Origin: an uncultured Alphaproteobacteria bacterium
GTDB taxonomy: Bacteria > Pseudomonadota > Alphaproteobacteria > UBA7985
NCBI GenBank assembly: GCA_905479265.1
Contig: CAJQLX010000001.1
Coordinates: forward strand, 1 to 64,000
DNA length: 64,000 nucleotides
Direction of reading: 5' to 3'
Below, one piece after another: positions 29,424-51,602 of this stretch. Below the pieces are notes generated by a model, which saw only the letters and a list, made by a program, of their open reading frames with translations, ran no database searches and was not told where the DNA came from. A program made the translations under genes and the position numbers. Every line of letters begins with the position of its first letter. Within the stretch, counting starts at the first letter, position 1.

Positions 29424-29446
29424 ATCAATCGAATATTCCGATTGAT
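29424..29446. promoter_or_regulatory. Candidate LysR operator
   Basis: A perfect inverted repeat ATCAATCG (29424-29431) and CGATTGAT (29439-29446) with a 7-nt AT-rich spacer. It has the T-N11-A-type dyad expected of LTTR sites and sits in the 164-bp divergent region, close to the regulator start. The transcript towards the dehydrogenases would start downstream of it; TATAGT at 29532-29537 could be a -10 but has no good -35. Confidence 0.6.
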
Positions 29447-29570
29447 AACGTCAGAAGCCAAGGCCCTTTTCTGCTCAAAATGCGCCGTCGAAGGGCGTAA
29501 AAGGTCGGTAATTCAGGTTGATAACAGGTTCTATAGTGCTGCTGTGGAACCGTCGAAAAAGGATTCTATC

Positions 29571-32009
29571 GTGGCTGATATTCCTAGCACTGCGCGCGTG
29601 GTCATCATTGGCGGAGGTGTCGTTGGCGTCTCTGCGCTCTATCATCTGGCGAAGATGGGCTGGAGCGATTGTGTCCTGCTTGAGAAAAACGAGCTGACGT
29701 CCGGTTCGACGTGGCACGCTGCGGGCAACTGCCCAACATTCTCGGCGTCTTGGTCCGTTATGAACATGCAGCGCTACTCGACGGAGCTTTACCGGGGATT
29801 GGCTGACGAGGTCGATTACCCGATGAACTACCACGTCACCGGCTCGATCCGACTGGCCCACAACAAAGACCGCATGCTTGAGTTTGAGCGTGTGATGGGC
29901 ATGGGCCGGTATCAGGACATTCCGATGGAGATGTGCTCGAACGACGACCTGAAGCGACACTACCCCTTCCTTGAGACCCACGATCTCGAAGGCGGCCTGT
30001 ACGATCCAACCGATGGCGATATTGACCCCGCCCAGCTGACTCAAGCGCTCGCCAAGGGCGCGCGGGCCATGGGTGGCAAGATCCTTCGCTTCTGCCCCGC
30101 GACGGGCGCGCGGCGTGAGAACGACGAGTGGGTTATTGAAACCGAAAAGGGCGAAATTCGCTGTGAGTACGTGGTCAACGCTGCGGGCTACCGGGCGCAA
30201 GAAGTCGGCCAATGGTTTGGCCGCTACGTGCCGATGGTATCCATGTCCCACCAATACGTGCTGACCGAGCCCGTGCCGGAGCTGGAGGCGTGGAGCAAGG
30301 AAACGGGCGGAAAGCTGCCGCTGCTGCGCGATGTTGATAGCTCTTACTACCTGCGTCAGGAGAAAATGGGCTTTAACATTGGTCCTTATGAGCGCAACTG
30401 TAAGGCCCATTGGGTGACGCCAGATGACCCGATGCCAGACGACTTCTCGTTCCAGCTTTGGGCCGACGATCTGGATCGGATTGAATGGTACGTCACCGAC
30501 GCGATGGAGCGTGTTCCCTTGGTGGGCACGTCCGGCGTTTCCAAGATCATCAACGGCCCCATTCCCTACACCCCCGATGGCCTGCCACTGATCGGCCCCA
30601 TGCCGGGCGTGCCGAATGCCTTTGAAGCCTGTGTTTTCACCTTTGGCATCACCCAAGGCGGTGGCGCCGGTAAAGTGCTGGCGGAATGGATCGTCGAAGG
30701 CGGGACAGAGTGGGATATGTGGTCCTGTGACCCGCGCCGCTTCACCGGCTTTATCGGTCAGGACTACGCGACCGCCAAGGGCATGGAAGTCTACGGCCAC
30801 GAATACGCCATGCACTACCCCCGCCACTTCTGGCCCGCCGCGCGCGACCAACGTCTGTCCGCACTGCACGATCGCATCAAGGGTCTGGGCGGTCAGATGG
30901 GCGACTATAACGGCTGGGAGCGCGCCGCTTGGTTCGCACAGGACGGCGATGACACATCGCTGGAAGCCACAGAGACATGGGAACGCGAAGGCCCGTGGCA
31001 GCAGCGCGTCGCCGAAGAAGTTGGCGCGGTGCGCGACGACGCTGGCATGCTCGATCTGCCCGGTTTCTCCCGTTTTCACGTGAAGGGCGAAGGGGCTTCG
31101 GCATGGCTGCGGACCCTCGTTTCTGGCGCCATCACCAAGCCGGGCCGTATTGGCCTGCTGTACTTCGCCGATGCGAAAGGCCGCACGGTGACGGAAATGT
31201 CGATCATCCGTTTCGACGAAGACGACTTCATGCTGATCACCGCAGCCTCCGCCGAGTGGCACGACAAGGGCTGGCTGGAACGACACATGCCAAAGGACGC
31301 TGGCTTTACGCTCACCGACCGGACCGAAGAGCTCGGGACGCTGATCGTTGCCGGTCCAAAGAGCCGTGAGAAGCTGGCTGGTTTGACCGATGCTGACTTG
31401 TCCCAAGGCTGGCTGACCCACCAAAACGCCACCGTTGCAGGCAAATCTGCGCTGCTGGTTCGGGTCTCCTTCACCGGCGAACTGGGCTGGGAAATCCACG
31501 CGGCACCCGCCGATCAGCCTGCGATCTACGACGCATTGCTCGACGCTGGTGTGAAGCCCTTCGGCATGTTCGCGCTGGACAGCATGCGGATCGAAAAAGG
31601 CTATCGCGCGTGGAAAGGCGACCTTTCCACAGATTACACCCTGCTCGAAGCCGGTCTCGACCGCTTCGTCAAGCTGGAGCGCAATGACGACTTTTTGGGC
31701 AAGGACGCGCTGATTGCACAGCGGGACGAAGGCTTGAAGAAGCGATTTGCCATGATGACCATCGACATTGGCGCTTACGATGCGCCGTACATGTCCACGG
31801 TTTGGAAAGGCGACGAAATCGTTGGCGAAATCACCTCTGGCGCGATGGGCTATCGCACCAACAAGTTTATCGCCCTGTCCGTTGTCCGGACCGATTGCCT
31901 GGCACCGGGAACCGCCCTGGAAGTCGAAATCTTTGGCGAGCGTCGCGCGGCGACGGTAACCGGTGATGACGCCGCGTGGGATCCACAAAACGAAAGGCTG
32001 CGGGCATGA
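29571..32009 (+). CDS. FAD-dependent dimethylglycine/sarcosine dehydrogenase-like protein
   Basis: A 812-residue protein of the DMGDH family. Members oxidatively remove N-methyl groups and pass the C1 unit to tetrahydrofolate. The N-terminal FAD domain starts ARVVIIGGGVVGVSALYHLAKMGW, and the family motif TSGSTWHAAGNCPTFSAS marks the region where flavin attaches in characterised enzymes. From about residue 440 the aminomethyltransferase (GCV_T) fold follows, with GFSRFHVKG, FTGELGWEIHA and FGMFALDSMRIEKGYRAWKGDL as THF-binding features. GTG at 29571 has AAGGA seven bases upstream and is preferred over the TTG at 29442. The stop overlaps the next gene (ATGA). The true substrate, glycine derivative or other methylated amine, is unknown. 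Confidence 0.88.
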   Translation: MADIPSTARVVIIGGGVVGVSALYHLAKMGWSDCVLLEKNELTSGSTWHAAGNCPTFSASWSVMNMQRYSTELYRGLADEVDYPMNYHVTGSIRLAHNKDRMLEFERVMGMGRYQDIPMEMCSNDDLKRHYPFLETHDLEGGLYDPTDGDIDPAQLTQALAKGARAMGGKILRFCPATGARRENDEWVIETEKGEIRCEYVVNAAGYRAQEVGQWFGRYVPMVSMSHQYVLTEPVPELEAWSKETGGKLPLLRDVDSSYYLRQEKMGFNIGPYERNCKAHWVTPDDPMPDDFSFQLWADDLDRIEWYVTDAMERVPLVGTSGVSKIINGPIPYTPDGLPLIGPMPGVPNAFEACVFTFGITQGGGAGKVLAEWIVEGGTEWDMWSCDPRRFTGFIGQDYATAKGMEVYGHEYAMHYPRHFWPAARDQRLSALHDRIKGLGGQMGDYNGWERAAWFAQDGDDTSLEATETWEREGPWQQRVAEEVGAVRDDAGMLDLPGFSRFHVKGEGASAWLRTLVSGAITKPGRIGLLYFADAKGRTVTEMSIIRFDEDDFMLITAASAEWHDKGWLERHMPKDAGFTLTDRTEELGTLIVAGPKSREKLAGLTDADLSQGWLTHQNATVAGKSALLVRVSFTGELGWEIHAAPADQPAIYDALLDAGVKPFGMFALDSMRIEKGYRAWKGDLSTDYTLLEAGLDRFVKLERNDDFLGKDALIAQRDEGLKKRFAMMTIDIGAYDAPYMSTVWKGDEIVGEITSGAMGYRTNKFIALSVVRTDCLAPGTALEVEIFGERRAATVTGDDAAWDPQNERLRA

Positions 32010-34477
32010 GCGCAAAAACCATTCCGAGCAAAGCCCGCGCCGTCGTCGTTGGCGGCGGGGTCAGCGGTTGTTCCGTGGCCTACCACCTCGCTAAAATGGG
32101 GTGGAAAGACATCGTGTTGCTGGAGCGTAAACAGCTTACGTGCGGCACAACCTGGCACGCGGCGGGGCTGATTGGTCAGCTTCGCCCGAACCAGAATATG
32201 ACCCGTCTGGCCAAGTATTCCGCCGAACTCTACGTGAAGCTCGAAGAGGAAACCGGCCTGTCGACGGGGATGAAGCAAAACGGCTCCATCACTGTGGCCC
32301 TGACCGAAGCCCGCAAAGAAGAGATTTACCGTCAGGCCTCTCTCGCGCGGGCTTTTGACGTTGATGTCAACGAAATCAGCCCCGAAGAAGCGCTAGCCAT
32401 GTACCCGCACCTGAACATCGATGGTGTGAAAGCAGCGGTTCACCTGCCGCTCGACGGGCAATGCGACCCCGCCAATATTGCTTTAGCGCTGGCCAAAGGC
32501 GCGCGGCAGATGGGCGCGACGATTATCGAAGGCGTCAAAGTCACCGGCGTCAATCAAGCCAACGGTGCCGTCACTGGCGTCACCTACGAGCGCGACGGCG
32601 AGCCGGGTCAGATCGATGCAGATGTGGTCGTGAACTGCGGCGGCATGTGGGCGCGCGACTTTGCCGCGATGGCCGGCGTCACCGTACCGCTCCACGCGTG
32701 CGAGCACTTTTACATTGTCACCGAACCCGTTCAGGGGCTGACCCAAATGCCCGTGCTGCGCGTCCCCGACGAGTGCGCGTATTACAAGGAAGACGCGGGC
32801 AAGATGATGCTCGGCGCGTTTGAGCCCAAAGCTAAGCCATGGGGCATGAACGGCATTTCCGAAGACTTCTGCTTCGACCAATTGCCGGAAGATTTCGACC
32901 ACTTTGAGCCAATCCTTGAAATGGGCGTGAACCGCATGCCGCTGCTGGGCGAAGCGGGGATCCATACGTTCTTCAATGGCCCTGAAAGCTTCACCCCAGA
33001 CGACAAATACTACCTCGGCGAAGCGCCTGAACTGCGCGGCTTTTGGGTCGCCGCGGGCTATAACTCCATCGGCATCGTATCGTCAGGCGGCGCCGGCTAC
33101 GCGCTGGCACAGTGGATCGTGGACGGTGAGCCGCCGTTTGACCTGTGGGACGTGGATATTCGCCGCGCCCAGCCCTTCCAGAAGAACCGCGTGTATCTGC
33201 GCGAGCGGGTGTCGGAAAGCCTCGGCCTGCTGTACGCCGATCATTGGCCTTATCGGCAGCCGGAAACCGCGCGCGGCGTGCGCCGGACACCGCTGCACGA
33301 GCACTTGAAGGCCAAGGGTGCGGTCTTTGGTGAAACCGCCGGTTGGGAACGGGCAAACTGGTTTGCCCGCGACGGGCAAGAGCGCGAATACCGCTATGAC
33401 TGGGGGCCGCAAAACTGGTTCGACAATGCCCGCGAAGAGCACCAGTCGGTGCGCGAAGGCGTTGGCCTGTTTGACCTTTCGACCTTTGGCAAAATCCGTG
33501 TTGAAGGCGCAGATGCCCTGCCCTTCCTCCAGCATGTTTGCGCCAACGATATGAACGTTGAACCGGGCAAGATCGTCTACACGCAGATGCTCAACGGTCG
33601 CGGCGGGATCGAAAGCGACCTGACCGTCACCCGACTTGGCGATACATCGTTCCTGCTGGTCGTTCCAGCGGCCACAATCCGCCGCGATATGGCGTGGCTT
33701 CAGCGCCATGTGCCGGCTGGGGCGCATGTTACTGTGTTTGACAACACCTCTGGTGAGGCCGTTATCGCACTGATGGGGCCGCAATCGCGAGAGCTGCTCA
33801 ACCGCGTATCACCCGACGGGTTCACCAACGACGTGCACCCCTTTGGCACAGCGCGGGAGATTGAAATCGGCATGGGCTTGGCCCGTGCGCACCGGATTTC
33901 CTATGTCGGCGAGCTGGGGTGGGAGCTGTACGTCAGCGCCGATATGGCGGGTCACGTGTTCGAAAGCATCGACGAAGCGGGCCAAGACCTTGGCCTCAAG
34001 ATGTGCGGACTGCACGTGCTTGATTCCTGTCGGATCGAAAAGGCATTCCGTCACTTCGGTCACGACATCACCGACGAGGACAACGTGCTCGAAGCCGGGC
34101 TTGGCTTTGCCGTCAAGCGCGACAAAGACAGCGGCAAGTTTGGGGATTTCATCGGGCGCAAAGCGGTCATGGAGACCCGCGAGCGCGGTCTGCAGCGGCG
34201 AATGCTGCAGTTCAAGCTCTCTGACCCAAAGTCCATGGTTTACCACAACGAGCCGATCATTCGGGACGGTAAGATTGTCAGCTTCCTGACCTCCGGCAAC
34301 TACGGCCACACCCTCGGCGCGTCGATCGGCTTGGGTTACGTGCCTGTCATCGATGGCGAAAAAGGCGCGGAGCAGTTGCAGTCCTCCTACGAAATCGAAA
34401 TTGCCGGTCAGCGCGTCGCGGCCGAAGTTTCTCTCAAGCCCATGTACGATCCAACCTCTGAGCGCGTCCGCGCCTAA
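32006..34477 (+). CDS. Second DMGDH-like FAD-dependent oxidoreductase
   Basis: A 823-residue paralogue of the gene before it, with the same domain order: FAD domain (ARAVVVGGGVSGCSVAYHLAKMGW, then LTCGTTWHAAGLIGQLRP), central oxidase region, and C-terminal GCV_T fold from about 430 (FDLSTFGKIRVEGADA, YVGELGWELYVSAD, LHVLDSCRIEKAFRHFGHD). The two proteins are clearly homologous but well diverged, so they probably handle different substrates or successive N-methyl groups. Translation is coupled to the first gene by ATGA, and the mttB-like gene follows by 15 bp. The start at 32006 is fixed by that overlap. Confidence 0.88.
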   Translation: MSAKTIPSKARAVVVGGGVSGCSVAYHLAKMGWKDIVLLERKQLTCGTTWHAAGLIGQLRPNQNMTRLAKYSAELYVKLEEETGLSTGMKQNGSITVALTEARKEEIYRQASLARAFDVDVNEISPEEALAMYPHLNIDGVKAAVHLPLDGQCDPANIALALAKGARQMGATIIEGVKVTGVNQANGAVTGVTYERDGEPGQIDADVVVNCGGMWARDFAAMAGVTVPLHACEHFYIVTEPVQGLTQMPVLRVPDECAYYKEDAGKMMLGAFEPKAKPWGMNGISEDFCFDQLPEDFDHFEPILEMGVNRMPLLGEAGIHTFFNGPESFTPDDKYYLGEAPELRGFWVAAGYNSIGIVSSGGAGYALAQWIVDGEPPFDLWDVDIRRAQPFQKNRVYLRERVSESLGLLYADHWPYRQPETARGVRRTPLHEHLKAKGAVFGETAGWERANWFARDGQEREYRYDWGPQNWFDNAREEHQSVREGVGLFDLSTFGKIRVEGADALPFLQHVCANDMNVEPGKIVYTQMLNGRGGIESDLTVTRLGDTSFLLVVPAATIRRDMAWLQRHVPAGAHVTVFDNTSGEAVIALMGPQSRELLNRVSPDGFTNDVHPFGTAREIEIGMGLARAHRISYVGELGWELYVSADMAGHVFESIDEAGQDLGLKMCGLHVLDSCRIEKAFRHFGHDITDEDNVLEAGLGFAVKRDKDSGKFGDFIGRKAVMETRERGLQRRMLQFKLSDPKSMVYHNEPIIRDGKIVSFLTSGNYGHTLGASIGLGYVPVIDGEKGAEQLQSSYEIEIAGQRVAAEVSLKPMYDPTSERVRA

Positions 34478-34492
34478 CAGGAGACTCTTTCC

Positions 34493-36034
34493 ATGAACGC
34501 TGAAGCACCAAGAAAGGGCCGCGCCGGTGGCCGTTCTGCCCGAGTTGCCCTCCGTGCAGCACCGTTGGCTGAAGATATTCGCCCGGTGCGCCCGGGTATG
34601 GAAGGCGGCACGTACAAGCCCCTTTCCGATGCTGAGATGAGCACGATTTACGAGGCTGCCTTAACAGCCTTGGAAACCATCGGGATGGCAGACGCCCCAC
34701 AGTCCGGCGTTGAGTCGATGGTCGCCGCCGGGGCGATTTTAGGCGAAGACAATCGCCTGCGCTTTCCCCGCGCGCTGGTGGAGCACACGCTCTCAATCGC
34801 GAATAAAAATCTGACGCTTCACGCCCAAGATCCAGCCTTTGATCTGGATCTCAGCGGGAATCGGGTGCACTTCGGCACTGCTGGCGCTGCCGTTCATCTG
34901 GTGAATGTCGATACCAAGGAATACGAAGATTCCACCATCGACCACCTCTACAGTGCCGCGCGCATTGTGGACCAGATGGACAACATCCACTTCTTCCAGC
35001 GTCCGATGGTTGCGCGCGATATTCTCGACAACCGCGAGATGGACCTCAACACCGTTTACGCATCGATCTCGGGCACGAAAAAGCACGTTGGCACGTCGTT
35101 CGTTGACACAACACACATGGAAGACGGGCTTGAGCTGCTCCGCATGGTTGCCGGTTCAGAAGAAGCGTGGCGGGCGCGTCCGTTTGTGTCCCTGTCGGTG
35201 ACCTTTGTGGTCCCGCCGATGAAGTATGCAACAGAATCCTGTGAAATCATGGAAGTGGCGATCCGGGGCGGTATGCCCGTGCTGCTGCTGTCTGCCGGGC
35301 AAGCGGGCGCAACCGCCCCTGCGGCCATTGCTGGCGCTGTTGTGCAGGCTGTTGCCGAGTGCTTAAGCGGTCTGGTGTACGTCAACTCGATCTCACCGGG
35401 TCACCCCGCGATTTTCGGCCCTTGGCCTTTTGTCTCTGACCTGCGCTCTGGCGCCATGTCTGGCGGCTCGGGTGAGCAAGCGATCCTCACCGCCGCGGTG
35501 GGTCAGATGGGCAAGTTCCTTGGCCTGCCAACCGGTTCCGCGGCGGGCATGGCGGACGCCAAAATGCCGGACGCTCAGTCGGGGTATGAAAAGGGTATCA
35601 CGAACGTGATGGCTGGCTTGGCCGGGATCAACATGGTCTATGAATCTGCCGGCATGCATGCATCGCTGTTGGGCTTTTGTCTGGAATCACTGATCATCGA
35701 TAATGACATGCTGGGTCAGGCCATGCGCTGTGTACGCGGGCTGGAAGTCACGCCGGACAAGCTCTCGCTGGATGTCATGGCCAAGACCTGTTTGGAGGGT
35801 CCGGGGCATTATCTGGGGTCAGATCAGACGCTTAGCTTGATGCAGTCTGAGTACATTTACCCCACCATTGGGGATCGCACCTCGCCCAAGGAATGGGCGG
35901 AAGTGGGGAAGCCCGTCTTACTGGAAGCCGCGCAGAAGACGCTGCGCACGATCTTGCAAGGCCCAAAGCCTACGCATATTCCGCCAGAAATCGATGCGGC
36001 CATCCGTGAAAGGTTCCGCATTCACTTCGGCTGA
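34493..36034 (+). CDS. Trimethylamine methyltransferase (MttB) family protein, non-pyrrolysine
   Basis: A 513-residue protein of the MttB/COG5598 family. True trimethylamine methyltransferases carry an in-frame UAG for pyrrolysine; this frame has none, so it belongs with the non-pyrrolysine branch. That branch includes the glycine betaine methyltransferase MtgB of Desulfitobacterium, which passes a methyl to a corrinoid protein. Visible features are GGTYKPLSDAEMSTIYEAAL, VHFGTAGAAVHLV, GTKKHVGTSFVD, GLPTGSAAGMADAKMPDAQSG and GPGHYLGSDQT near the C-terminus. The N-terminus is Arg/Ala-rich. It ends the three-gene operon. No corrinoid protein or reactivase gene lies in this window. Confidence 0.88.
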   Translation: MNAEAPRKGRAGGRSARVALRAAPLAEDIRPVRPGMEGGTYKPLSDAEMSTIYEAALTALETIGMADAPQSGVESMVAAGAILGEDNRLRFPRALVEHTLSIANKNLTLHAQDPAFDLDLSGNRVHFGTAGAAVHLVNVDTKEYEDSTIDHLYSAARIVDQMDNIHFFQRPMVARDILDNREMDLNTVYASISGTKKHVGTSFVDTTHMEDGLELLRMVAGSEEAWRARPFVSLSVTFVVPPMKYATESCEIMEVAIRGGMPVLLLSAGQAGATAPAAIAGAVVQAVAECLSGLVYVNSISPGHPAIFGPWPFVSDLRSGAMSGGSGEQAILTAAVGQMGKFLGLPTGSAAGMADAKMPDAQSGYEKGITNVMAGLAGINMVYESAGMHASLLGFCLESLIIDNDMLGQAMRCVRGLEVTPDKLSLDVMAKTCLEGPGHYLGSDQTLSLMQSEYIYPTIGDRTSPKEWAEVGKPVLLEAAQKTLRTILQGPKPTHIPPEIDAAIRERFRIHFG

Positions 36035-39216: not shown

Positions 39217-39873
39217 ACGCAGATGATCCATCCGGAATACGTCGTTATGTAATGTTTTTGCATTATAAAAATCAATTTTAGGTATACACACATATTGCAA
39301 ATGGCTATTTCCAGCGAACGTGCGCGGTTTTAGGGAATTTTCTAAGGCAACTGGAAAACGTCTCGCCAGTTTTTCCTTGGCGTTGGATTGGCGCGAAGGG
39401 CGTTTGGGCCAAGCCGTGGGCGCGCTTTAAGGGCGTTGAACGCCAGCTTTTTCGAGGGTGCGTAACGCTATTTTTCAACGTCGATTGCCCGCAAAAACCG
39501 AACGATGACAGCGCACATTTTTTGTTTTTTATCAGTTTGTTAAGGGGCGATGAGCTGAGCTTCCCGCCCAAAAAGGTGAATGCCATTCTGTCTGTGCTTG
39601 GTACAGAAACCGCACGCGGGTAAGCGCGCCGTTGAACGCCAAAACATCTCTACTGTGCAATGCTGCTCCTCATTGAATAATTCATCTGCAATGCACGCAT
39701 TATAAAAAATGGATTACCATTTGCTCTCCTCCCTCTGCCGATCTTCTGAGTTCAGTGCTCTTTGCCCCTCCAGCCCCGTCTGAAAGGGTGCTTGCACCGC
39801 TCTGAAGCCTACGAAGGATTGAGTTTATCGCTCAAGCCTCCGGCGCAGATGAAAGTCTTTTTTGGAGCGAACG
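39217..39873. other. Long AT-rich intergenic region upstream of the surface locus
   Basis: A 657-bp gap of lower GC content, the longest in the window, with no convincing gene. Two 12-mers are each present twice: GCATTATAAAAA (39258-39269 and 39697-39708) and CGTTGAACGCCA (39434-39445 and 39630-39641). A 93-codon frame on the minus strand (39305-39586) has no coding character. It probably holds the promoter and control elements of the surface locus; the second GCATTATAAAAA lies about 165 bp before the first gene. Confidence 0.6.
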
Positions 39874-42192
39874 ATGAAAACGAAATTGTTACTGGCCGGT
39901 GCGTCTGCGCTGGCTTTGACGTGGGCGTCTACGGCCCACGCGGAAAACGTGGGTATTGGTGTCCTAGAACCCCAAGCCGTCCTGCACGTCGCAGGTGAGA
40001 CAACAAACTCAAATGACGTAATTTTCCAGAATCTTGATGCTTATGATGGCACGGCCAACACGGAAAACGTGCTGTTGGTTGACGAAGACGACGGCCAACG
40101 CGTCAAAACGGTGCCGCTTACTGACCTTTTGGTCGATGACAGTTTCGTAAACACGAGCTTTGACTTCGACTCTGCAACCAATTTGCTGTCCATCTCAGAA
40201 GGCGGCCTGACCCTGATCGCGGATCTATCTACGCTGTCAGACACGCTGAGCAACACCGACACCAACACCACCATTGCCTCGGTAAGCTATCTCAATGGTG
40301 TGGTCACGATCACGGATTCCGATGGCAACACCTTCCCCGTCGATATTTCGGCGGTTGATACCACTGTTTCCAACAGCGACGTGGCCTATGATCCGATCAC
40401 GAACCTCCTGACCATTGAAGAAGACGGGCTGACGTTCATCACGGACCTGTCTGACTTGCAGGATACAGACACGGACACTGTGATCGTCGACGTTACCTAC
40501 GACGGTGTAGCCAACACGCTCTCGGTTTTGGATAGCGGCCTGAACCAATTCGATGTGGATTTGACTGATCTGCAAGATACTTTCACGGACCTCAATCTTG
40601 GCAACTCGAACCTCACACAGACCGCAGGTGACGCTGTCCGCACCTACGATGCTGGCAATCAGGAGCTCCACTTTGTCAACGGTAGCTTTGTGCTGGGTAA
40701 TTCCACGCGCGTCGACGAAGGCGAATCAGACTCCCAAGCTGCGGGAACGCAAGCGGGCAACGGTTACACCGAAACCCCGGCTCTTTACACGCAGATCATT
40801 GAGGCCATCAATGAGACCGGCCCGCAATCTACCGGCATCGCATTCAGCAACGATGGTACCTATAATTCGACCACAGACGTGGTCTCCCTCTTTACGAACG
40901 GACAAAATCGGCTTGTCGCTCATGGCAACGGCCATGTGCAGCTTAACGAGTACGGCCAGAACATTGCTAGATTCCCAGGCGACGCGGCCTTAGACAAATA
41001 TCTGACCGTTGGCATTCAAGGATACATCCGAGAGGTCCCTGCCCCGGTAGACACGACGATTTCCAACACCGGTGCCAGCCTCGATGGGCAAAACGTTCTA
41101 ACCATCACTGACGAAACCGGCGATATCAGTGTCGATCTGTCAGGCTTGGCCGTTACCTTGAGCGACACGACTGTTTCCAACACTGCGGCAACGCTTGATG
41201 GCCTGACAAACGTGCTGACCATCACCGATGAGACGGGCGATGTGACCGTTGATCTTTCGGCACTGTCAGACACTGACACCACTATCTCCAACACCGCAGC
41301 GACGCTCGATGGGCTGACAAACGTGCTGACCATCACTGACGAAACCGGTGATGTGACGGTCGACTTGTCTTCGCTGTCAGATGCGCTGAACGACACCACC
41401 GTATCAAACACGGCGGCGACATTCGACGGGGCAACCAACGTGCTGACCATCACCGATGAAACCGGCGATGTTGCTGTCGATATTTCTGCTGTTGATACCG
41501 ACACCACTGATCTGGACTGGGCGGTTTCTGGAACCGCGTCTGACCTGTCCACCGGCATTGGCGACAACATCTACACCAACGGAAACGTTGGCATTAACAC
41601 CGACGCGCCTTTGTATCCGTTGGTGGTCGATACAGCCGCGACCCAAAACGCTTTGGTGGTTCGTGAAGCAACCGAAGGCGCAGAGACCTTGGGCCGTGTG
41701 GGCGTTGGAACGGACACGCCGGGCTACTCGCTGGACGTGAGCGGAGACATTCGCGCGACGGGCAGCATTTATTCCGGTGATCAGTTCCTCGCATCGAACT
41801 TTTTCCAAACCTCAGATCGTCGCCTGAAAACGGAAATTGAAGGCTTCAACCGCGGTCTGGAAATCCTGCGTCAAATGCGTCTGGTCTCCTACCGCTACAA
41901 CGGTCTCGGCCTGCCGACCAATACCGAGCGGCTGCACTATGGCGTGATCGCCCAAGAGCTACAGGCGATTGATCCTGAGCTGGTTGGTTCGTTCTACTCA
42001 CCAGAAGATCGCATGGATTACATGACCGTTAACGTCCAATCCATGACCTACGTGCTCGCCAATGCTCTGCAGCAGTTGGATGCAGAAAATGCGCGGATCA
42101 CAGCGGTCCTGCTGGACTCCGAGGCGCGCATCAGCCGTCTCGAAGAAAGCATGCGCCTCATGGCGGCACGCCTCGGCGTCTCTGATCAGTAG
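39874..42192 (+). CDS. Secreted fibre-like protein with C-terminal S74 chaperone domain
   Basis: A 772-residue exported protein. ATG at 39874 has GGAG six bases upstream and starts a signal peptide (KTKLLLAGASALALTWASTAHAE). The body is built from about eight repeats of 30-39 residues with a core like TNVLTITDETGDVTVDLS, four degenerate then four nearly identical. A head-like segment follows (about 560-645, with VGINTDAPLYPL and GVGTDTPGYSLDVSGDIRATGSIYS). The C-terminus, from Ser 647 (SDRRLKTEIEGFNRGLEIL, then HYGVIAQELQAIDPEL), is a Peptidase_S74 intramolecular chaperone, which trimerises fibres and self-cleaves before the serine in phage proteins. It ends in a coiled coil. A trimeric surface fibre is the likely product; the ligand is unknown. 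Confidence 0.85.
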   Translation: MKTKLLLAGASALALTWASTAHAENVGIGVLEPQAVLHVAGETTNSNDVIFQNLDAYDGTANTENVLLVDEDDGQRVKTVPLTDLLVDDSFVNTSFDFDSATNLLSISEGGLTLIADLSTLSDTLSNTDTNTTIASVSYLNGVVTITDSDGNTFPVDISAVDTTVSNSDVAYDPITNLLTIEEDGLTFITDLSDLQDTDTDTVIVDVTYDGVANTLSVLDSGLNQFDVDLTDLQDTFTDLNLGNSNLTQTAGDAVRTYDAGNQELHFVNGSFVLGNSTRVDEGESDSQAAGTQAGNGYTETPALYTQIIEAINETGPQSTGIAFSNDGTYNSTTDVVSLFTNGQNRLVAHGNGHVQLNEYGQNIARFPGDAALDKYLTVGIQGYIREVPAPVDTTISNTGASLDGQNVLTITDETGDISVDLSGLAVTLSDTTVSNTAATLDGLTNVLTITDETGDVTVDLSALSDTDTTISNTAATLDGLTNVLTITDETGDVTVDLSSLSDALNDTTVSNTAATFDGATNVLTITDETGDVAVDISAVDTDTTDLDWAVSGTASDLSTGIGDNIYTNGNVGINTDAPLYPLVVDTAATQNALVVREATEGAETLGRVGVGTDTPGYSLDVSGDIRATGSIYSGDQFLASNFFQTSDRRLKTEIEGFNRGLEILRQMRLVSYRYNGLGLPTNTERLHYGVIAQELQAIDPELVGSFYSPEDRMDYMTVNVQSMTYVLANALQQLDAENARITAVLLDSEARISRLEESMRLMAARLGVSDQ
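41050..41508 (+). repeat. In-gene tandem repeats, four near-identical units
   Basis: Units begin at about 41050, 41164, 41275 and 41392 and are 111-117 bp long, encoding 37-39 residues each that share NVLTITDETGD. Nucleotide identity between units two and three is high, so copy number could vary by recombination. Four older, diverged units occupy about 40150-40590. Confidence 0.85.
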
Positions 42193-42206
42193 CCCCCCCC
42201 GCGTAG

Positions 42207-42283
42207 CTGGCTCTCCCCAGTCCCCCGACCGAGCCAGATGCTGATCAGCGCAAACCGGACAGGCCCCCAAAGCCTGTCCGGTT
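42207..42283 (+). terminator. Two hairpins between the two S74 genes
   Basis: CTGGCTC (42207-42213) can pair with GAGCCAG (42231-42237). A perfect 12-bp stem AACCGGACAGGC (42253-42264) with GCCTGTCCGGTT (42272-42283) follows, with a 7-nt loop. The stem ends in CCCCTTCGTTTT, a weak U tract, so it could be a partial terminator, or a barrier that sets the 3' end of the first gene's mRNA. Confidence 0.5.
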
Positions 42284-42317
42284 CCCCTTCGTTTTCACGC
42301 GACCAGAGTGATCCAGA

Positions 42318-43262
42318 ATGAAACCCTTTTGCGTTCCCGTTGACCGAGCTGCTCTCGCCTTTACCGCGCTTGCCGCTGCGCTGATGACAGCGTCGCTGGG
42401 CCACGGAGATGTGGGCATTGGCACGGACATGCCGACGGCCAAGCTGCATGTCGTGGGGGAAAGCAATCAAGATGGAAGCGACCTTCGCATTGAAAATCTC
42501 GACCCACCTCAAGCCGGCGAAGCGCTGCGGGTTATTGTGACGGACGACGCGGGGTATTTCCACGCGCTTGCCCCCGACGACCTGCCGCTGTCTGGTGCCG
42601 AAACCACGACCGGAACGACCGCCAGCGATGATGATTGGCGTGTGTCGATCCCGGGAAGTGCACTGACCATCGACAGTACGATTTACACCAACAATCGCGT
42701 CGGCATTGGCGTGACAATTCCAGCTTACGAACTGGACATTCAAGGCGACATTCGGGCGACAGGGTCGCTCTTTGCCTCCAACCACGTCATCACCCACGCG
42801 ACGTTTGCAACGTCTGACCGGCGCTTCAAGCGAGACATCGAGAGCTATGACAACGGCCTCGACCACGTCCGCGCCATGCAGCCGAAACAGTTTCGATACA
42901 CCGACAATGCCCCCGGTGGGCCCAGCGAGCGCCTGTATTATGGCTTGATCGCTCAAGACGCCGCCAGCATTGACGCGAACCTCGTCCAATCCTTTCCCCT
43001 GCCCACCAGCGCGCACGACGCAACGCCCGAAACCTACTTAGGCGTGGACAGTCAGCGCCTGGTCTTCACCCTGATTTCAGCGGTAAAGGCACTGGACGCC
43101 AAAGACCGCGAAATCGACGAACTGCGCACACGGCTTGAAGAGCTCGAAGCGTTGGTCACCCCTCGATCTCCAAACGGGGAATACCTCAGCGTCCGCAGAT
43201 TCCCTGCCGACGCTTTCCTTAACCATACAAACCCTCATTTACAGCCCAAGGAATATTTTTGA
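42318..43262 (+). CDS. Second exported S74-domain protein
   Basis: A 314-residue relative of the fibre protein without the repeat shaft. The N-terminus is a plausible signal sequence (AALAFTALAAALMTASLGHG). The mature start DVGIGTDMPTAKLHVVGES resembles that of the larger protein (NVGIGVLEPQAVLHVAGET), and DIQGDIRATGSLFAS repeats its head segment. The S74 domain begins at Ser 166 (SDRRFKRDIESYDNGLDHV, then YYGLIAQDAASID) and a C-terminal coiled coil follows (about 255-280). It may be a short fibre, a cap, or a partner that forms mixed trimers. Its stop overlaps the next gene by one base. Confidence 0.82.
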   Translation: MKPFCVPVDRAALAFTALAAALMTASLGHGDVGIGTDMPTAKLHVVGESNQDGSDLRIENLDPPQAGEALRVIVTDDAGYFHALAPDDLPLSGAETTTGTTASDDDWRVSIPGSALTIDSTIYTNNRVGIGVTIPAYELDIQGDIRATGSLFASNHVITHATFATSDRRFKRDIESYDNGLDHVRAMQPKQFRYTDNAPGGPSERLYYGLIAQDAASIDANLVQSFPLPTSAHDATPETYLGVDSQRLVFTLISAVKALDAKDREIDELRTRLEELEALVTPRSPNGEYLSVRRFPADAFLNHTNPHLQPKEYF

Positions 43263-44323
43263 TGAAAATGCTGTCGTTGGCCGTCGTGGCCATGGGAGCT
43301 TTGGCACTGCCGTTCGGTGCACAGGCTCTCTCCGTGTCTGTTGTTTTTGACGCCTCCCGCGAGGCAGATTTGAACTGGTCTGAACACGTCCAAGCTGGTT
43401 TGGCCCTCTCACTCGGAAGCGTGGGCGATATTCAGGTTTTGGACCCCGTCGGCTATTCGGGGCCGGATGATTTTGCGGCGCTGGTTTCTGATCTCGCCAC
43501 GGATGTTGTCATCACCAATTTCCCCCAAGCCAGCACCGTTTTGAGCGATGAGGCGAGCCGTCCGCTGCTGATGAATCTCAGCCCGGCGATGACCAACACG
43601 TGCGATAAGAGCACCCTGCACCTTGCCGGTGATGTCGCGCTTGGGCGCTTGGCGGCTCTCTATATGAACGATTTGAACGCCCAGCGTACGTTCGCGTTTG
43701 TAAAGGAAAACGAAGAAGGTCAGCAAAATCTCGCAGACTTTCGGCGTGCCTTCACGGGCGGATTGGGCGGCGCAGCCTTTGCCGAGCCGGATCAATCAAA
43801 CTTTGACAATGAAATCGCTATTCTGCGCGTGACCAAAGCCGATGGTGCTTACTTCGATCTCGAAGGCGATGCCCTGTATCGCTACCTCGACGCCTTTGCC
43901 CAAGGCGTGGTCTCGGACACCCTGAACACCGTCACCACGTCGGAAATTGACTACGATCGTTTGCCCGAAGATACCCGGGCGGCTCTGTCGTCGATGACGC
44001 TGGTTTCAGCATGGAACCCCGACACCGTAGACGCGGCTGAATTCAAGGCGGCCTTTAACGCGCAACTTGGCGAAGACCCGAGCTTTGCGGGTTTGATGGG
44101 GTTTGAGGCTGGCGATCTGTTGCTCAAGGCGATGAAAGGGACAGAAGACACACTGTTCGACAATGTCGTTTCCCTGTCATGGCAATCGCCGCGCGGGCCG
44201 GTTTCCTTTGATGCCTATGGCTACGCAATCGTTCCCGTCGGCGCGTACGGTTTCACCGATACCGCCCTTTCGCTCAAAGGGCGGATTTCGGTCCAGACCA
44301 ACCATGGTTGCAGCGAAAGCTAA
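43262..44323 (+). CDS. Periplasmic-binding-fold protein in the surface locus
   Basis: A 353-residue exported protein with a signal peptide (KMLSLAVVAMGALALPFGAQA). The mature part looks like a type I periplasmic binding fold of the branched-chain amino-acid class: SVSVVFDASREADLNW, then DVVITNFPQA, RPLLMNLSPAMTNTC, AALYMNDLNAQRTFAFV, and a C-terminal lobe with FAGLMGFEAGDLLLKAM. It contains only two cysteines, one in TNTCDKST and one near the C-terminus. No permease or ATPase gene is near. ATG at 43262 overlaps the previous stop (TGATG) and has AAGGA upstream. A ligand-binding component of a surface structure is possible; this is inference. Confidence 0.7.
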   Translation: MKMLSLAVVAMGALALPFGAQALSVSVVFDASREADLNWSEHVQAGLALSLGSVGDIQVLDPVGYSGPDDFAALVSDLATDVVITNFPQASTVLSDEASRPLLMNLSPAMTNTCDKSTLHLAGDVALGRLAALYMNDLNAQRTFAFVKENEEGQQNLADFRRAFTGGLGGAAFAEPDQSNFDNEIAILRVTKADGAYFDLEGDALYRYLDAFAQGVVSDTLNTVTTSEIDYDRLPEDTRAALSSMTLVSAWNPDTVDAAEFKAAFNAQLGEDPSFAGLMGFEAGDLLLKAMKGTEDTLFDNVVSLSWQSPRGPVSFDAYGYAIVPVGAYGFTDTALSLKGRISVQTNHGCSES

Positions 44324-44349
44324 GCGCTTTACAGGGGCAGAACACGGCA

Positions 44350-46629
44350 ATGAGAGATTGGCTTGCTCTGCCCCGGATGTTGGCAGTGACGCTGCTGGTT
44401 GCGATGACGGTGGCCACGCGACCCGCGCACGCGCAAATGATCAACACCGGCGGCCTCTTCATCTCAACCGATGAAGTTGTCATGGTGGACGACGACTTTA
44501 TTCAGGCTGACGCCACGCAAAGCACCATCAATCAAGGCACGCTGATGATTTCCGGCACGCTGCGTTTTATCGACGGCGTGATTGACGAAACCGGTGGCGC
44601 GCTGGTGAACCGATTGACCGGCCAGGGCGGAGTGCGCCTCAGCCAGCCTGATTTTCACACACTCTTTTTAGCGTCGGCCCAGTCACAAGACGCGAGCGCT
44701 GTTCTGGACGACGGCGGCACGAATGCTGTCATCGACGGTCCCGTTCGGCGGATTGGCGGCGGTGAGTTTGTCTTTCCAACCGGCGATAACCGCAGCGGTG
44801 AGGTCTATCGCGGATTGGTGGGACTGAGCGCGCCAGACACGGCGGGTGAGGTTGACGTCCACTACCACTGGCGAGACGGCCTGTCTGATTTTGGCGTCCA
44901 GCGGGAGAGCCTCCTGATCGCGGTAACAGACCGCGAATACTGGCAAGTTTGGGGAGATTCCGCGATCGATATATCCCCCATGTATGAGTCCACCAGCCGG
45001 ATCAACGCGTTGATCCAAGAGAACCCGGGGGCAACGCTGGACAACCTCACGCTGGCCGGGTGGACCGGGGCGCAGTGGGTGGATCTGGACGGTCAAGCCG
45101 GCACACGTTCCAACAGCACCAGCGGCTTTGTCACTGCGCGCCTTGCGCTGCCGAACACCATAGCGGCCGTAACCTTTGCGCTGCGGTTGGCGGGCGAGGA
45201 AGACAGCGACAACGACAGTGTGCCCAACGACAAGGAATGGGACAGCAACGGCGACGGGCAAGGTCCGGATGATACGGACAACGACGGCACGCCCGACTAT
45301 TTGGACCCCGATGACGACGGCGACGGTTTTCTGACACGCGACGAGGATTGGGACCAGTCCGGCACGCCGTGCGATGATGATCGTGATGGCGATGGTCGGC
45401 CCGACTATCTGGATCCCGATGCTGGTGACAGAATCCAGCTCTGGGTAACGAAATCCGCCAGCCAAGCGCGGTTTTCCATCGGTGATATCGTCAGCTGGAC
45501 CCTGTCGGTGGAGAACCGATCGCGCACGGCGGTTACCGTGACCTTGCTGGACATCCTCCCCCTTGGTCTGGCGGTGGATCGACGGCGCCTGAGCCTAAGC
45601 TCTGCAGGACGCTTTGGCCCGCCACCCACAGCGGCACAGAGCGCGCCCCTGCACCACCCGGACATGGATCCCGATGGTGTTGGCCTTGTCTTGCATTGGC
45701 CGGACCTGATGCTTCAGCCGGGGGAAACCCGGTACATGGAGTTTCTGACCGAGGCGACCATTGGGCTCGATGCTGGCGAATACATAAACCGGGCTTTCGC
45801 CGTCACCGAAACCGCAGCGCAGCCGGCATTCTCCAACCTTGCCGCGTTTCCTTTTGAGCTGCGCCAAGATGTGGACTTGGGTTGCACGACCGTGATTGGG
45901 CGGGTGTTCAACGATGTGAATGTCGATGGTATCCACGATCCGAACGAGCCGGGCATCGCAGCGGCGAGGATTGGGGAGCACAGCGGCCTGATCATCCGCA
46001 CGGACGAATATGGCCGCTTCCATCTTCCCTGCGCTTTGGTTCCCCACGGTTCAGGCAAAAATCTGGTGCTCAAACTGGATGAGCGCACCTTGCCCGCAGG
46101 CTACAAGATGACCAGCGAAAACCCCCGCGTGGTGCGCGTCACGCGTGGTAAAATCGCCAAGGCGAACTTTGGCGCGGCGCTATCGCGCGAAGTCACGCTG
46201 AATATCAGCGACTGCACCTTCGCCCCCGGCGCCCAACTCTCGCGCTTTCACCCCGCTTGGACAGAGACGCTCGCGCGCTTGATGCAGGTACTTGATCAAG
46301 GTCCGGCGCGGTTGGTCATCGATTACACGGGCGTTGTGAAACTCGACGGCGCGCTGCTGCAGGATCGGTTTGACCGCGCCGAGACCGATGTTCGGAACCT
46401 TTGGAAGTCTCGCCCCCGACGCTACGATCTGGACCTGAGCTTCCGCTCTCGTCGCCTGATCGGGACCGAAAAATTGCCATGCCAGCGCTTTGCGTTCGAC
46501 GACCACCGTTTTGACCTCCCAACATCGTCCCAAAAACCTCAACCCAGCGGATCTCGTTGGTCCCCACGCGTCATCAAGCCACCGCGAGGGAACCGCTTTT
46601 TTGCAGCGACGGGCGGCAAATCACGCTAA
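44350..46629 (+). CDS. Large multi-domain surface protein (Ca-binding repeats, DUF11, SdrD-like)
   Basis: A 759-residue exported protein; ATG at 44350 starts a signal peptide ending in RPAHAQ. The N-terminal half (about 30-280) contains VDGPVRRIGGGEFVFPTGD-like and YRGLVGLSAP segments reminiscent of Bacteroidetes surface proteins. Residues about 284-360 carry DxDxDG-type repeats (DSDNDSVPND, DTDNDGTPDYLDPDDDGDG) that should bind calcium. A DUF11-like domain follows (about 364-500, VTKSASQARFSIGDIVSWTLSVENRS), then an SdrD B-like domain (about 515-610, IGRVFNDVNVDGIHDPNEPG). The last 150 residues include an OmpA-like stretch (RLVIDYTGVV, FDRAETDVRNLW) and a basic tail. It is probably last in the locus operon, with a 26-bp gap from the binding-fold gene. 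Confidence 0.8.
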   Translation: MRDWLALPRMLAVTLLVAMTVATRPAHAQMINTGGLFISTDEVVMVDDDFIQADATQSTINQGTLMISGTLRFIDGVIDETGGALVNRLTGQGGVRLSQPDFHTLFLASAQSQDASAVLDDGGTNAVIDGPVRRIGGGEFVFPTGDNRSGEVYRGLVGLSAPDTAGEVDVHYHWRDGLSDFGVQRESLLIAVTDREYWQVWGDSAIDISPMYESTSRINALIQENPGATLDNLTLAGWTGAQWVDLDGQAGTRSNSTSGFVTARLALPNTIAAVTFALRLAGEEDSDNDSVPNDKEWDSNGDGQGPDDTDNDGTPDYLDPDDDGDGFLTRDEDWDQSGTPCDDDRDGDGRPDYLDPDAGDRIQLWVTKSASQARFSIGDIVSWTLSVENRSRTAVTVTLLDILPLGLAVDRRRLSLSSAGRFGPPPTAAQSAPLHHPDMDPDGVGLVLHWPDLMLQPGETRYMEFLTEATIGLDAGEYINRAFAVTETAAQPAFSNLAAFPFELRQDVDLGCTTVIGRVFNDVNVDGIHDPNEPGIAAARIGEHSGLIIRTDEYGRFHLPCALVPHGSGKNLVLKLDERTLPAGYKMTSENPRVVRVTRGKIAKANFGAALSREVTLNISDCTFAPGAQLSRFHPAWTETLARLMQVLDQGPARLVIDYTGVVKLDGALLQDRFDRAETDVRNLWKSRPRRYDLDLSFRSRRLIGTEKLPCQRFAFDDHRFDLPTSSQKPQPSGSRWSPRVIKPPRGNRFFAATGGKSR

Positions 46630-47232: not shown

Positions 47233-50114
<2,882 letters not shown>

Positions 50115-50122
50115 CACTGCAT

Positions 50123-51160
50123 TTAACCCTTGCGGCGGCGGTTGCCACCACTGCGACGGGTTGAGTTCTTCAGCGCGTCTTGGCCAATGGCGATTTGGCG
50201 AGCGCCATCGGACATTTTGCCCAAAGCCAGCTCAATCGCCAGCACGCGGAAATCCGGTTGATCGTTTTCATCCAGAGCCTCCCGCATGGCGGCAACATGC
50301 TCGGGCTTTGTCCCACAACAGCCGCCGATAATCTTCGCCCCTGCTGCACGCGCCAGTTGGGCATAGGCTGCCATTTGCTCGACTGTACCGCTGTAGACAA
50401 TCTCGCCATCGTCATAGTGCGGGATACCGCAATTCGCTTTGGCGATAACCGGCGCGGTTGGTTGGGCGTCGGCAAAGCCGAGCACGGAGCTCATCAAATC
50501 AGACGCACCAACGCCGCAGTTTGCCCCAAAACCATCGAGGTTGAAGTCTTCGGCGAGGCCAGCAAAGGCACGGGGGGTCAGGCCCATCATGGTCCGGCCC
50601 GCGCTGTCAAAACTCATCGTCGCGCATACGGGTATGTCAAAGGAGCGCGCCGCTTCTGCTGCGGCTTCCAATTCATCGGGGGCGGAAATGGTTTCGATCC
50701 AGACAAGATCAATGCCGCCCTCAACCAACCCTTCGATTTGTTCTTTAAAACTGGCTACAGCGTCGGCTTTTTCGAGGCCACCCAGCGGGGTCAGCAGCTC
50801 CCCTGTTGGCCCTACTGAACCCGCAACCAAAACCCGCCGATCCGCCTTGTCAGCCACGTCGCGGGCCAGCATCGCTGCGGTGCGGTTCAGGGACGTAACC
50901 TGCCCCTCTAGGCCGTGCAGCTTGAGCCGGTGCCGGGTGCCACCAAATGTATTCGTCAGGAAAAGATCGCTGCCCGCATCGACAAAGGATTTATGCAAGG
51001 CTTGGACCCGATCGGGGTGCTCCAACAGCCATGCTTCCGGCGCTTCACCACTTTCCAAACCCATGGCAAACAGGTTGGTTCCCGTTGCGCCATCGGCGAG
51101 CAATACGCCGCGTTCTTCGAGCAGGGTGCTAAAAGCCGAGTTTGATGCCTGCGTATCCAC
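50123..51160 (-). CDS. bmt: Betaine--homocysteine S-methyltransferase
   Basis: A 345-residue homocysteine S-methyltransferase of the barrel family. It moves a methyl from glycine betaine to homocysteine, producing methionine and dimethylglycine. The motifs are LLADGATGTNLFAMG, LFLTNTFGGTRHRLKLHG, GSVGPTGELLTPLG, and the zinc ligands FGANCGVG and IIGGCCGTKPEHV. Bacterial genes of this type are named bmt. GTG at 51160 has GGGAG seven bases upstream and is preferred over the ATG at 51202; it overlaps the end of the upstream gene by 32 bp. The dimethylglycine it releases is the presumed substrate type of the DMGDH-like proteins elsewhere in the window. Confidence 0.88.
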   Translation of the reverse strand: MDTQASNSAFSTLLEERGVLLADGATGTNLFAMGLESGEAPEAWLLEHPDRVQALHKSFVDAGSDLFLTNTFGGTRHRLKLHGLEGQVTSLNRTAAMLARDVADKADRRVLVAGSVGPTGELLTPLGGLEKADAVASFKEQIEGLVEGGIDLVWIETISAPDELEAAAEAARSFDIPVCATMSFDSAGRTMMGLTPRAFAGLAEDFNLDGFGANCGVGASDLMSSVLGFADAQPTAPVIAKANCGIPHYDDGEIVYSGTVEQMAAYAQLARAAGAKIIGGCCGTKPEHVAAMREALDENDQPDFRVLAIELALGKMSDGARQIAIGQDALKNSTRRSGGNRRRKG

Positions 51161-51602
51161 GTAATTCTCCCAAGCCCAGTTCACCCCGGCTGAAGAAAGC
51201 AAAGTGACGCGTCAGCTCAAACTCTGCTTCGACACCGGAAATGAAGTATGGCGTCCAATCATATTCTTGGCTTGGGTCATCGATATCGACGTAAGAGATA
51301 ACGCCTGCGCCGCCGCCAAGCCCAAGGCTAACGGGGCCAACCCCCATTACCGTGAGCCAACCTGTCGCATCCAAGGCGATAGAACAACAGGCTTGGTCAT
51401 GACCTGAGGCGAAGGCAGCCCCCTCCACTTTGATCCAATCAAGCGGTGCTGCGCCGAGTGCGAAACGCCCGGTCAAGCCGTTGCTTTCCAAATTGCTGTA
51501 AACGCCTCCGGCACCGCTCATGTAGAGTTGTGCCGTAGCAGTGCCGGGTAGGATCAAAGCCGCCAGCGTCGAAAAGAAGAAACCAAAGAGACGAAGGCGC
51601 AT
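51129..51602 (-). CDS. Putative small outer-membrane protein
   Basis: A 157-residue exported protein. The signal peptide is RLRLFGFFFSTLAALILPGTATA, and the mature part has alternating polar/non-polar strands with Gly-rich turns (GLGGGAGVISYV, GYAGIKLGF) and ends in Phe, as expected of an eight-strand barrel. Two adjacent cysteines (QACCSIAL) are unusual for a barrel. The family is not recognised. It is third in a five-gene minus-strand operon, 11 bp after the DUF2799 lipoprotein, and its 3' end overlaps the start of bmt. Confidence 0.7.
   Translation of the reverse strand: MRLRLFGFFFSTLAALILPGTATAQLYMSGAGGVYSNLESNGLTGRFALGAAPLDWIKVEGAAFASGHDQACCSIALDATGWLTVMGVGPVSLGLGGGAGVISYVDIDDPSQEYDWTPYFISGVEAEFELTRHFAFFSRGELGLGELRGYAGIKLGF

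Follow-up and report, generated by a model that had tools for sequence, protein, structure and literature searches.

A variable accessory locus with two predicted exported S74 fibre proteins in an uncultured alphaproteobacterium

The window, i.e., the whole stretch of 64,000 nt analysed here, belongs to the 2.89 Mb assembly of an uncultured alphaproteobacterium. An ORF check of positions 39874-46629 revealed four genes on the plus strand, all coding for exported proteins and preceded by an AT-richer leader. The best start codon of the first gene is the ATG at 39874, with ggag upstream. The locus contains the following features:

39217..39873, plus strand: AT-richer leader before the first fibre gene (GC 0.47-0.49)
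39874..42192, plus strand: S74a, exported fibre protein of 772 aa
39874-39942, plus strand: signal peptide of S74a, with a VGIG...P...L motif directly after it
40150..40581, plus strand: first shaft block of S74a, four divergent repeats of ~35 aa (residues 93-236)
40582..41052, plus strand: unique middle segment of S74a between the repeat blocks (residues 237-393)
41053..41499, plus strand: second shaft block of S74a, four near-identical repeats (residues 394-542)
41812..41985, plus strand: Peptidase_S74 domain of S74a, C-terminal chaperone/protease, with SDRRLK and the predicted cleavage serine S647
42253..42283, plus strand: perfect 12-bp hairpin in the gap between the two fibre genes
42318..43262, plus strand: S74b, exported S74 protein of 314 aa, no repeat shaft
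42813..42986, plus strand: Peptidase_S74 domain of S74b, with SDRRFK at residues 166-171
43262..44323, plus strand: orphan LivK-type (type 1) solute-binding protein, exported, 353 aa
44350..46629, plus strand: DUF11 protein, exported, 759 aa
N-terminal domain of the DUF11 protein, plus strand: no detectable relatives
about 45196-45429, plus strand: Asp-rich TSP_3-like (Ca-type) repeats
from about 45439, plus strand: DUF11
about 45868-46449, plus strand: SdrD_B-like and conserved C-terminal region

In each of the four proteins, a brief N-terminal segment precedes a hydrophobic stretch, and a plausible signal-peptidase site follows, as judged by inspection and not by a trained predictor. The 12-residue Kyte-Doolittle mean of the signal regions is 2.0-2.5, and a scan of the four proteins beyond this region revealed no comparable hydrophobic segment. 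These results agree with an earlier note on this DNA, which had assigned signal peptides to all four proteins. Its spacing of the last three genes (-1 and 26 bp) is also correct: the stop codon of S74b and the start codon of the binding-protein gene share one base (TGATG at 43260-43264), and the ATG of the DUF11 gene at 44350 follows 26 bp after the stop codon of the binding-protein gene. These three genes are probably co-transcribed. Between S74a and S74b there is a gap of 125 bp containing the perfect 12-bp hairpin (42253-42283), which has a folding energy of -27.6 kcal/mol compared to -14.2 kcal/mol in shuffled sequences (z -5.4) and resembles a terminator or attenuator, although its T run is weak. 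Because this gap and the hairpin split S74a from S74b, the four genes do not form one tight operon, and the hairpin suggests that S74a is transcribed apart from S74b. Likely transcription units are therefore S74a alone and S74b together with the genes for the binding protein and the DUF11 protein, with read-through being possible. A promoter and terminator scan gave scores no better than those of shuffled sequences. The place and the domains of the gene set described in the earlier note were borne out.

Within the leader, the sequence GCATTATAAAAA is present twice, at 39260 and at 39697 (39697-39708). In addition, a 40-bp block at 39245-39284 is 80% identical (E 8e-5) to the end of a contig of a species of the same genus (G003:C65). 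The block and the GCATTATAAAAA copies might represent a regulatory site.

The Peptidase_S74 domain was detected above the Pfam cut-off in both S74a (E 2e-16) and S74b (E 2.3e-13), and no further S74 domain was found elsewhere in the 2.89 Mb assembly. The SDxxxK self-cleavage motif is intact in both proteins (SDRRLK at 647 in S74a, SDRRFK at 166 in S74b). The two proteins share 40% identity across the C-terminal 166 residues and also resemble each other in a stretch behind the signal peptide, and by these sequence criteria they are paralogues. The shaft of S74a comprises eight units of ~35 aa in two blocks; at the DNA level, the repeats appear as 171-nt copies with 74% identity and as four 40-nt copies with 60% identity or more. 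The Pfam E-values and the repeat analysis thus confirm the two S74 fibre proteins of the earlier note, one with a repeat shaft and one without, and a trimeric fibre, as proposed there, is what an S74 protein would be expected to form. An AlphaFold model of the S74 C-terminal region, calculated with a two-sequence input, was unusable (mean pLDDT 39).

The third protein, for which a ligand-binding fold had been proposed, could be placed in the LivK type. It matched PDB 4ey3 with an E-value of 8e-8, is about 19-24% identical to LivK-type proteins, and was recognized with an E-value of 2e-19 by a profile of seven LivK relatives from which it was itself excluded; a search in Pfam gave no significant match. 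Two cysteine residues that are invariant among the LivK relatives, Cys 114 and Cys 350, are kept. By sequence, the protein is a degenerate member of the LivK-type family and is shorter than the proteins represented by 4ey3. Since no permease or ATPase gene was present among the neighbouring genes scanned, unlike in LivK-type systems, it probably does not serve a transporter at this locus. The AlphaFold model obtained from single-sequence input was unusable (pLDDT 32).

The DUF11 protein shows the order DUF11, SdrD_B and conserved C-terminal region, as found in a DUF11/SdrD_B family that is common in Alphaproteobacteria and occurs without S74 genes. In the window protein itself, DUF11, TSP_3 and SdrD_B all remain below the Pfam cut-offs, but relatives of the same region score clearly, with E-values reaching 2e-11 (DUF11) and 5e-6 (SdrD_B). 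For the N-terminal 269 residues no relatives were found in Pfam or plasmids, and a comparison of the protein with genome contigs gave only two short matches, both in Flavobacteriales. DUF11/SdrD_B proteins encoded on plasmids of Sulfitobacter, Sinorhizobium, and Nitratireductor align to residues about 364-699 with roughly 28-39% identity. Those inspected comprise thousands of residues, in contrast to the 759 aa of the window protein, and the gene directly downstream of theirs is large and either of outer-membrane type or hypothetical. Directly downstream of the window gene no such large outer-membrane-type partner gene was found; dsbB is located there instead. The genome itself also harbours a giant DUF11/SdrD_B relative of over 3780 aa, whose gene is cut by a contig end (L028:1-11352, G000:C37), and giant DUF11 proteins are present elsewhere in the genomes of relatives. 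A LivK gene near a giant DUF11 gene in G009 and G010 was considered as a parallel set and rejected, since an ordinary LIV-type transporter operon adjoins.

Co-occurrence of the four families, which the earlier note had put forward as a check, was searched for in 10 other genomes of the order and in a sample of 385 genomes of the class, which is thin per family. No other genome examined has them together: the four-gene set was found in none of the 10 order genomes, of which G002 and G003 have contigs ending at the locus, and in none of the others in the class sample. Among the 11 genomes of the order, S74 is confined to the genome studied here. Across the 385 class genomes, its own included, S74 is present in 30, LivK-type matches in 100, and the DUF11 protein in 10, and none of the 20 S74 regions read has a DUF11 or binding-protein neighbour. 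In two genomes of the same genus, G004 and G005, a sugar-epimerase-like gene and dsbB occur in the same order with the four-gene locus absent between them. The spacer measures about 300 bp in G005 and about 950 bp in G004; in the latter, only a DUF1801 remnant was recognized, and a decayed DUF11 trace was searched for but not established. The G003 contig ends after DUF1801 and the 40-bp block resembling window positions 39245-39284. In G002, a third member of the genus, one contig ends 95 bp past the epimerase gene, and the beginning of another lies shortly ahead of the C-terminal third of a DUF11 gene, followed by dsbB. This remnant is 56% identical to the window gene. Both contig ends carry an 83-bp direct repeat (97.6% identity; L146:1-83 and L029:63-145, G002:C59 and C95). 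Since the contig begins just before the C-terminal third, beside this repeat, we consider the DUF11 gene truncated in G002. The absence of the set elsewhere, the joined site without it in two species of the genus and the truncated DUF11 gene in a third identify the locus as a variable accessory chromosomal block, partly eroded in one relative, and not as a conserved system. The 83-bp repeats may be the sign of a site that is mobile or undergoes recombination.

Exported S74 proteins of cellular function have been described in Bdellovibrio bacteriovorus, whose MAT (mosaic adhesive trimer) fibres are displayed on the cell surface; the statement of the earlier note that it knew of no described system with this set was thus too strong. 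The S74 MAT proteins of this organism possess a signal peptide and include 13 S74 members (PMC10769870). Proteins with S74 domains form trimers and undergo self-cleavage at the SDxxxK serine, which is required for cleavage of the MAT fibre Bd3182 (PMC10769870). S74a and S74b resemble this S74 subgroup in the signal peptide, the long shaft (of S74a) and the C-terminal S74 domain with SDxxxK, and in being cellular and not viral. Their VGIxxxxP...L motif, with three copies in S74a and two in S74b, recalls the capping-loop motif VG..P...L of MAT proteins, which has one residue fewer before the proline. They differ in that there are two genes instead of 13 S74 members, in their neighbours and in the lack of any sign of a predator lifestyle. 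MAT proteins carry a conserved β-rich domain of ~130 aa directly after the signal peptide (PMC10769870); in S74a, only ~70 aa separate the signal peptide from the shaft repeats. By analogy, S74a and S74b probably belong with the exported S74 fibres and would work as MAT proteins do, on a comparison that covered the signal peptide, the S74 domain and the capping-loop motif.

From the domains, motifs, signal peptides and gene order established by sequence, together with the empty site in relatives, we arrive at a reading that we favour slightly, namely a chromosomal accessory surface locus for a MAT-like trimeric adhesion fibre and a short relative, located beside co-transcribed genes for exported proteins. 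Both S74 proteins would use the Sec route for export and assemble into homotrimers, assisted by the C-terminal S74 domain, which would then cleave itself off at the serine of SDxxxK. The product of S74a would be a long trimeric fibre with the repeat shaft (residues 24-646) and that of S74b a short fibre (about residues 31-165). Both would be located on the cell surface and serve in attachment, as do the S74 MAT fibres of Bdellovibrio; trimerization, cleavage, surface display and adhesion are all deduced by analogy. The two remaining proteins, LivK-type and DUF11, would be exported as well, their genes sharing a transcript with S74b. For the DUF11 protein, a location in the envelope or at the surface is probable, and these two proteins may cooperate with the fibres.

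S74 domains match the tail-fibre families of phages, and the locus might therefore be a prophage or tail-derived remnant, which we regard as very improbable. The genes flanking the locus belong to methylated-amine catabolism, one-carbon metabolism and housekeeping functions; their products include two FAD/GcvT-type proteins, MttB, an Oxidored_FMN protein, a homocysteine methyltransferase, and isocitrate/isopropylmalate-type and semialdehyde dehydrogenases. None of the ten flanking proteins tested matched a phage structural, lysis or integration protein, as the earlier note had stated. The C-terminal chaperone/protease domain also occurs in the S74 tail fibres and tailspikes of phages (tail-fibre families of PHROG), but S74a and S74b carry signal peptides and the similarity is confined to their C-terminal part (residues about 569-765 of S74a, and likewise in S74b). 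No relatives were found in viral contigs (IMG/VR). GC content and codon usage of the four genes lie inside the normal range of the window, so that codon usage appears native and gives no support for a recent transfer. A cellular role of the S74 domains, as proposed before, is supported by export and by a location outside of any prophage. The locus splits a methylated-amine/one-carbon neighbourhood (29442-36034 and 47245-51202) whose parts lie closer together in two species of the genus.

A serious competitor, whose chances we place somewhat below even, is that the fibre pair, the orphan binding protein and the DUF11 protein were gathered independently in a hotspot for surface genes and have no joint function. 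It fits the empty site in G004 and G005, the lack of co-occurrence across the 385 class genomes, the pairing of the DUF11 family elsewhere with a large outer-membrane-type protein instead of S74, and the giant DUF11 proteins in the own genome and in relatives. However, the overlap and short gaps in S74b, binding-protein and DUF11 genes imply shared expression, and all four proteins are exported. Such independent gathering would leave the fibres of the MAT-like explanation standing and denies the functional link only. The same gene order, common export and tight spacing, together with the DUF11 orthologue at the same place in G002, could also speak for one attachment or capture appendage of four proteins, with the binding protein providing ligand specificity and the DUF11 protein the anchor, as proposed in the earlier note. 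We consider this unlikely, because the set is not conserved, only the C-terminal third of DUF11 is retained in G002, cut by the 83-bp repeat, and a hairpin follows the first gene. That note had named missing co-occurrence and a position in a prophage or decaying island as observations against its proposal; co-occurrence was not found in any other genome examined and DUF11 is truncated in G002, both of which speak at least in part against it, while no prophage was seen. Also unlikely is a new cellular appendage in which a self-cleaving trimeric S74 fibre, the short S74 protein, the transporter-free LivK protein and the calcium-repeat DUF11 protein couple a sensor for soluble ligands to an adhesive fibre. 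The four-gene system as such would gain importance only through evidence of co-occurrence or interaction.

The MAT-like fibre pair adds a lineage outside Bdellovibrio, from a poorly sampled alphaproteobacterial order, to the apparent users of phage-type S74 fibres as exported surface proteins. In the 20 alphaproteobacterial S74 regions, about nine S74 proteins have a Sec-type signal by inspection and four a prepilin N-terminus. Because of these N-termini in other Alphaproteobacteria, exported cellular S74 proteins can be regarded as a recurring kind, and the survey suggests that S74 exported fibres recur in this class, sometimes on type IV prepilins. The closest S74 matches in the plasmid collection were 'tail fiber domain-containing' proteins of Bacteroidota (Hymenobacter and Aureispira plasmids; 37% identity over 135 aa), one of them near a gene with a T9SS sorting domain; they belong to another phylum and align only partially. 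The four prepilin-like proteins (L117:7736-9265, L120:7161-8549, L121:7967-9358, and L130:7660-9036 in G228, G125, G391, and G316, respectively) combine N_methyl with a C-terminal Peptidase_S74 domain, have 459-510 aa and are preceded by a gene for a small membrane-type protein. They are apparently S74-tipped and type IV pilin-like. In another alphaproteobacterium, an S74 domain (G110:C34:140793-140945) is part of an open reading frame about 25,189 codons long.
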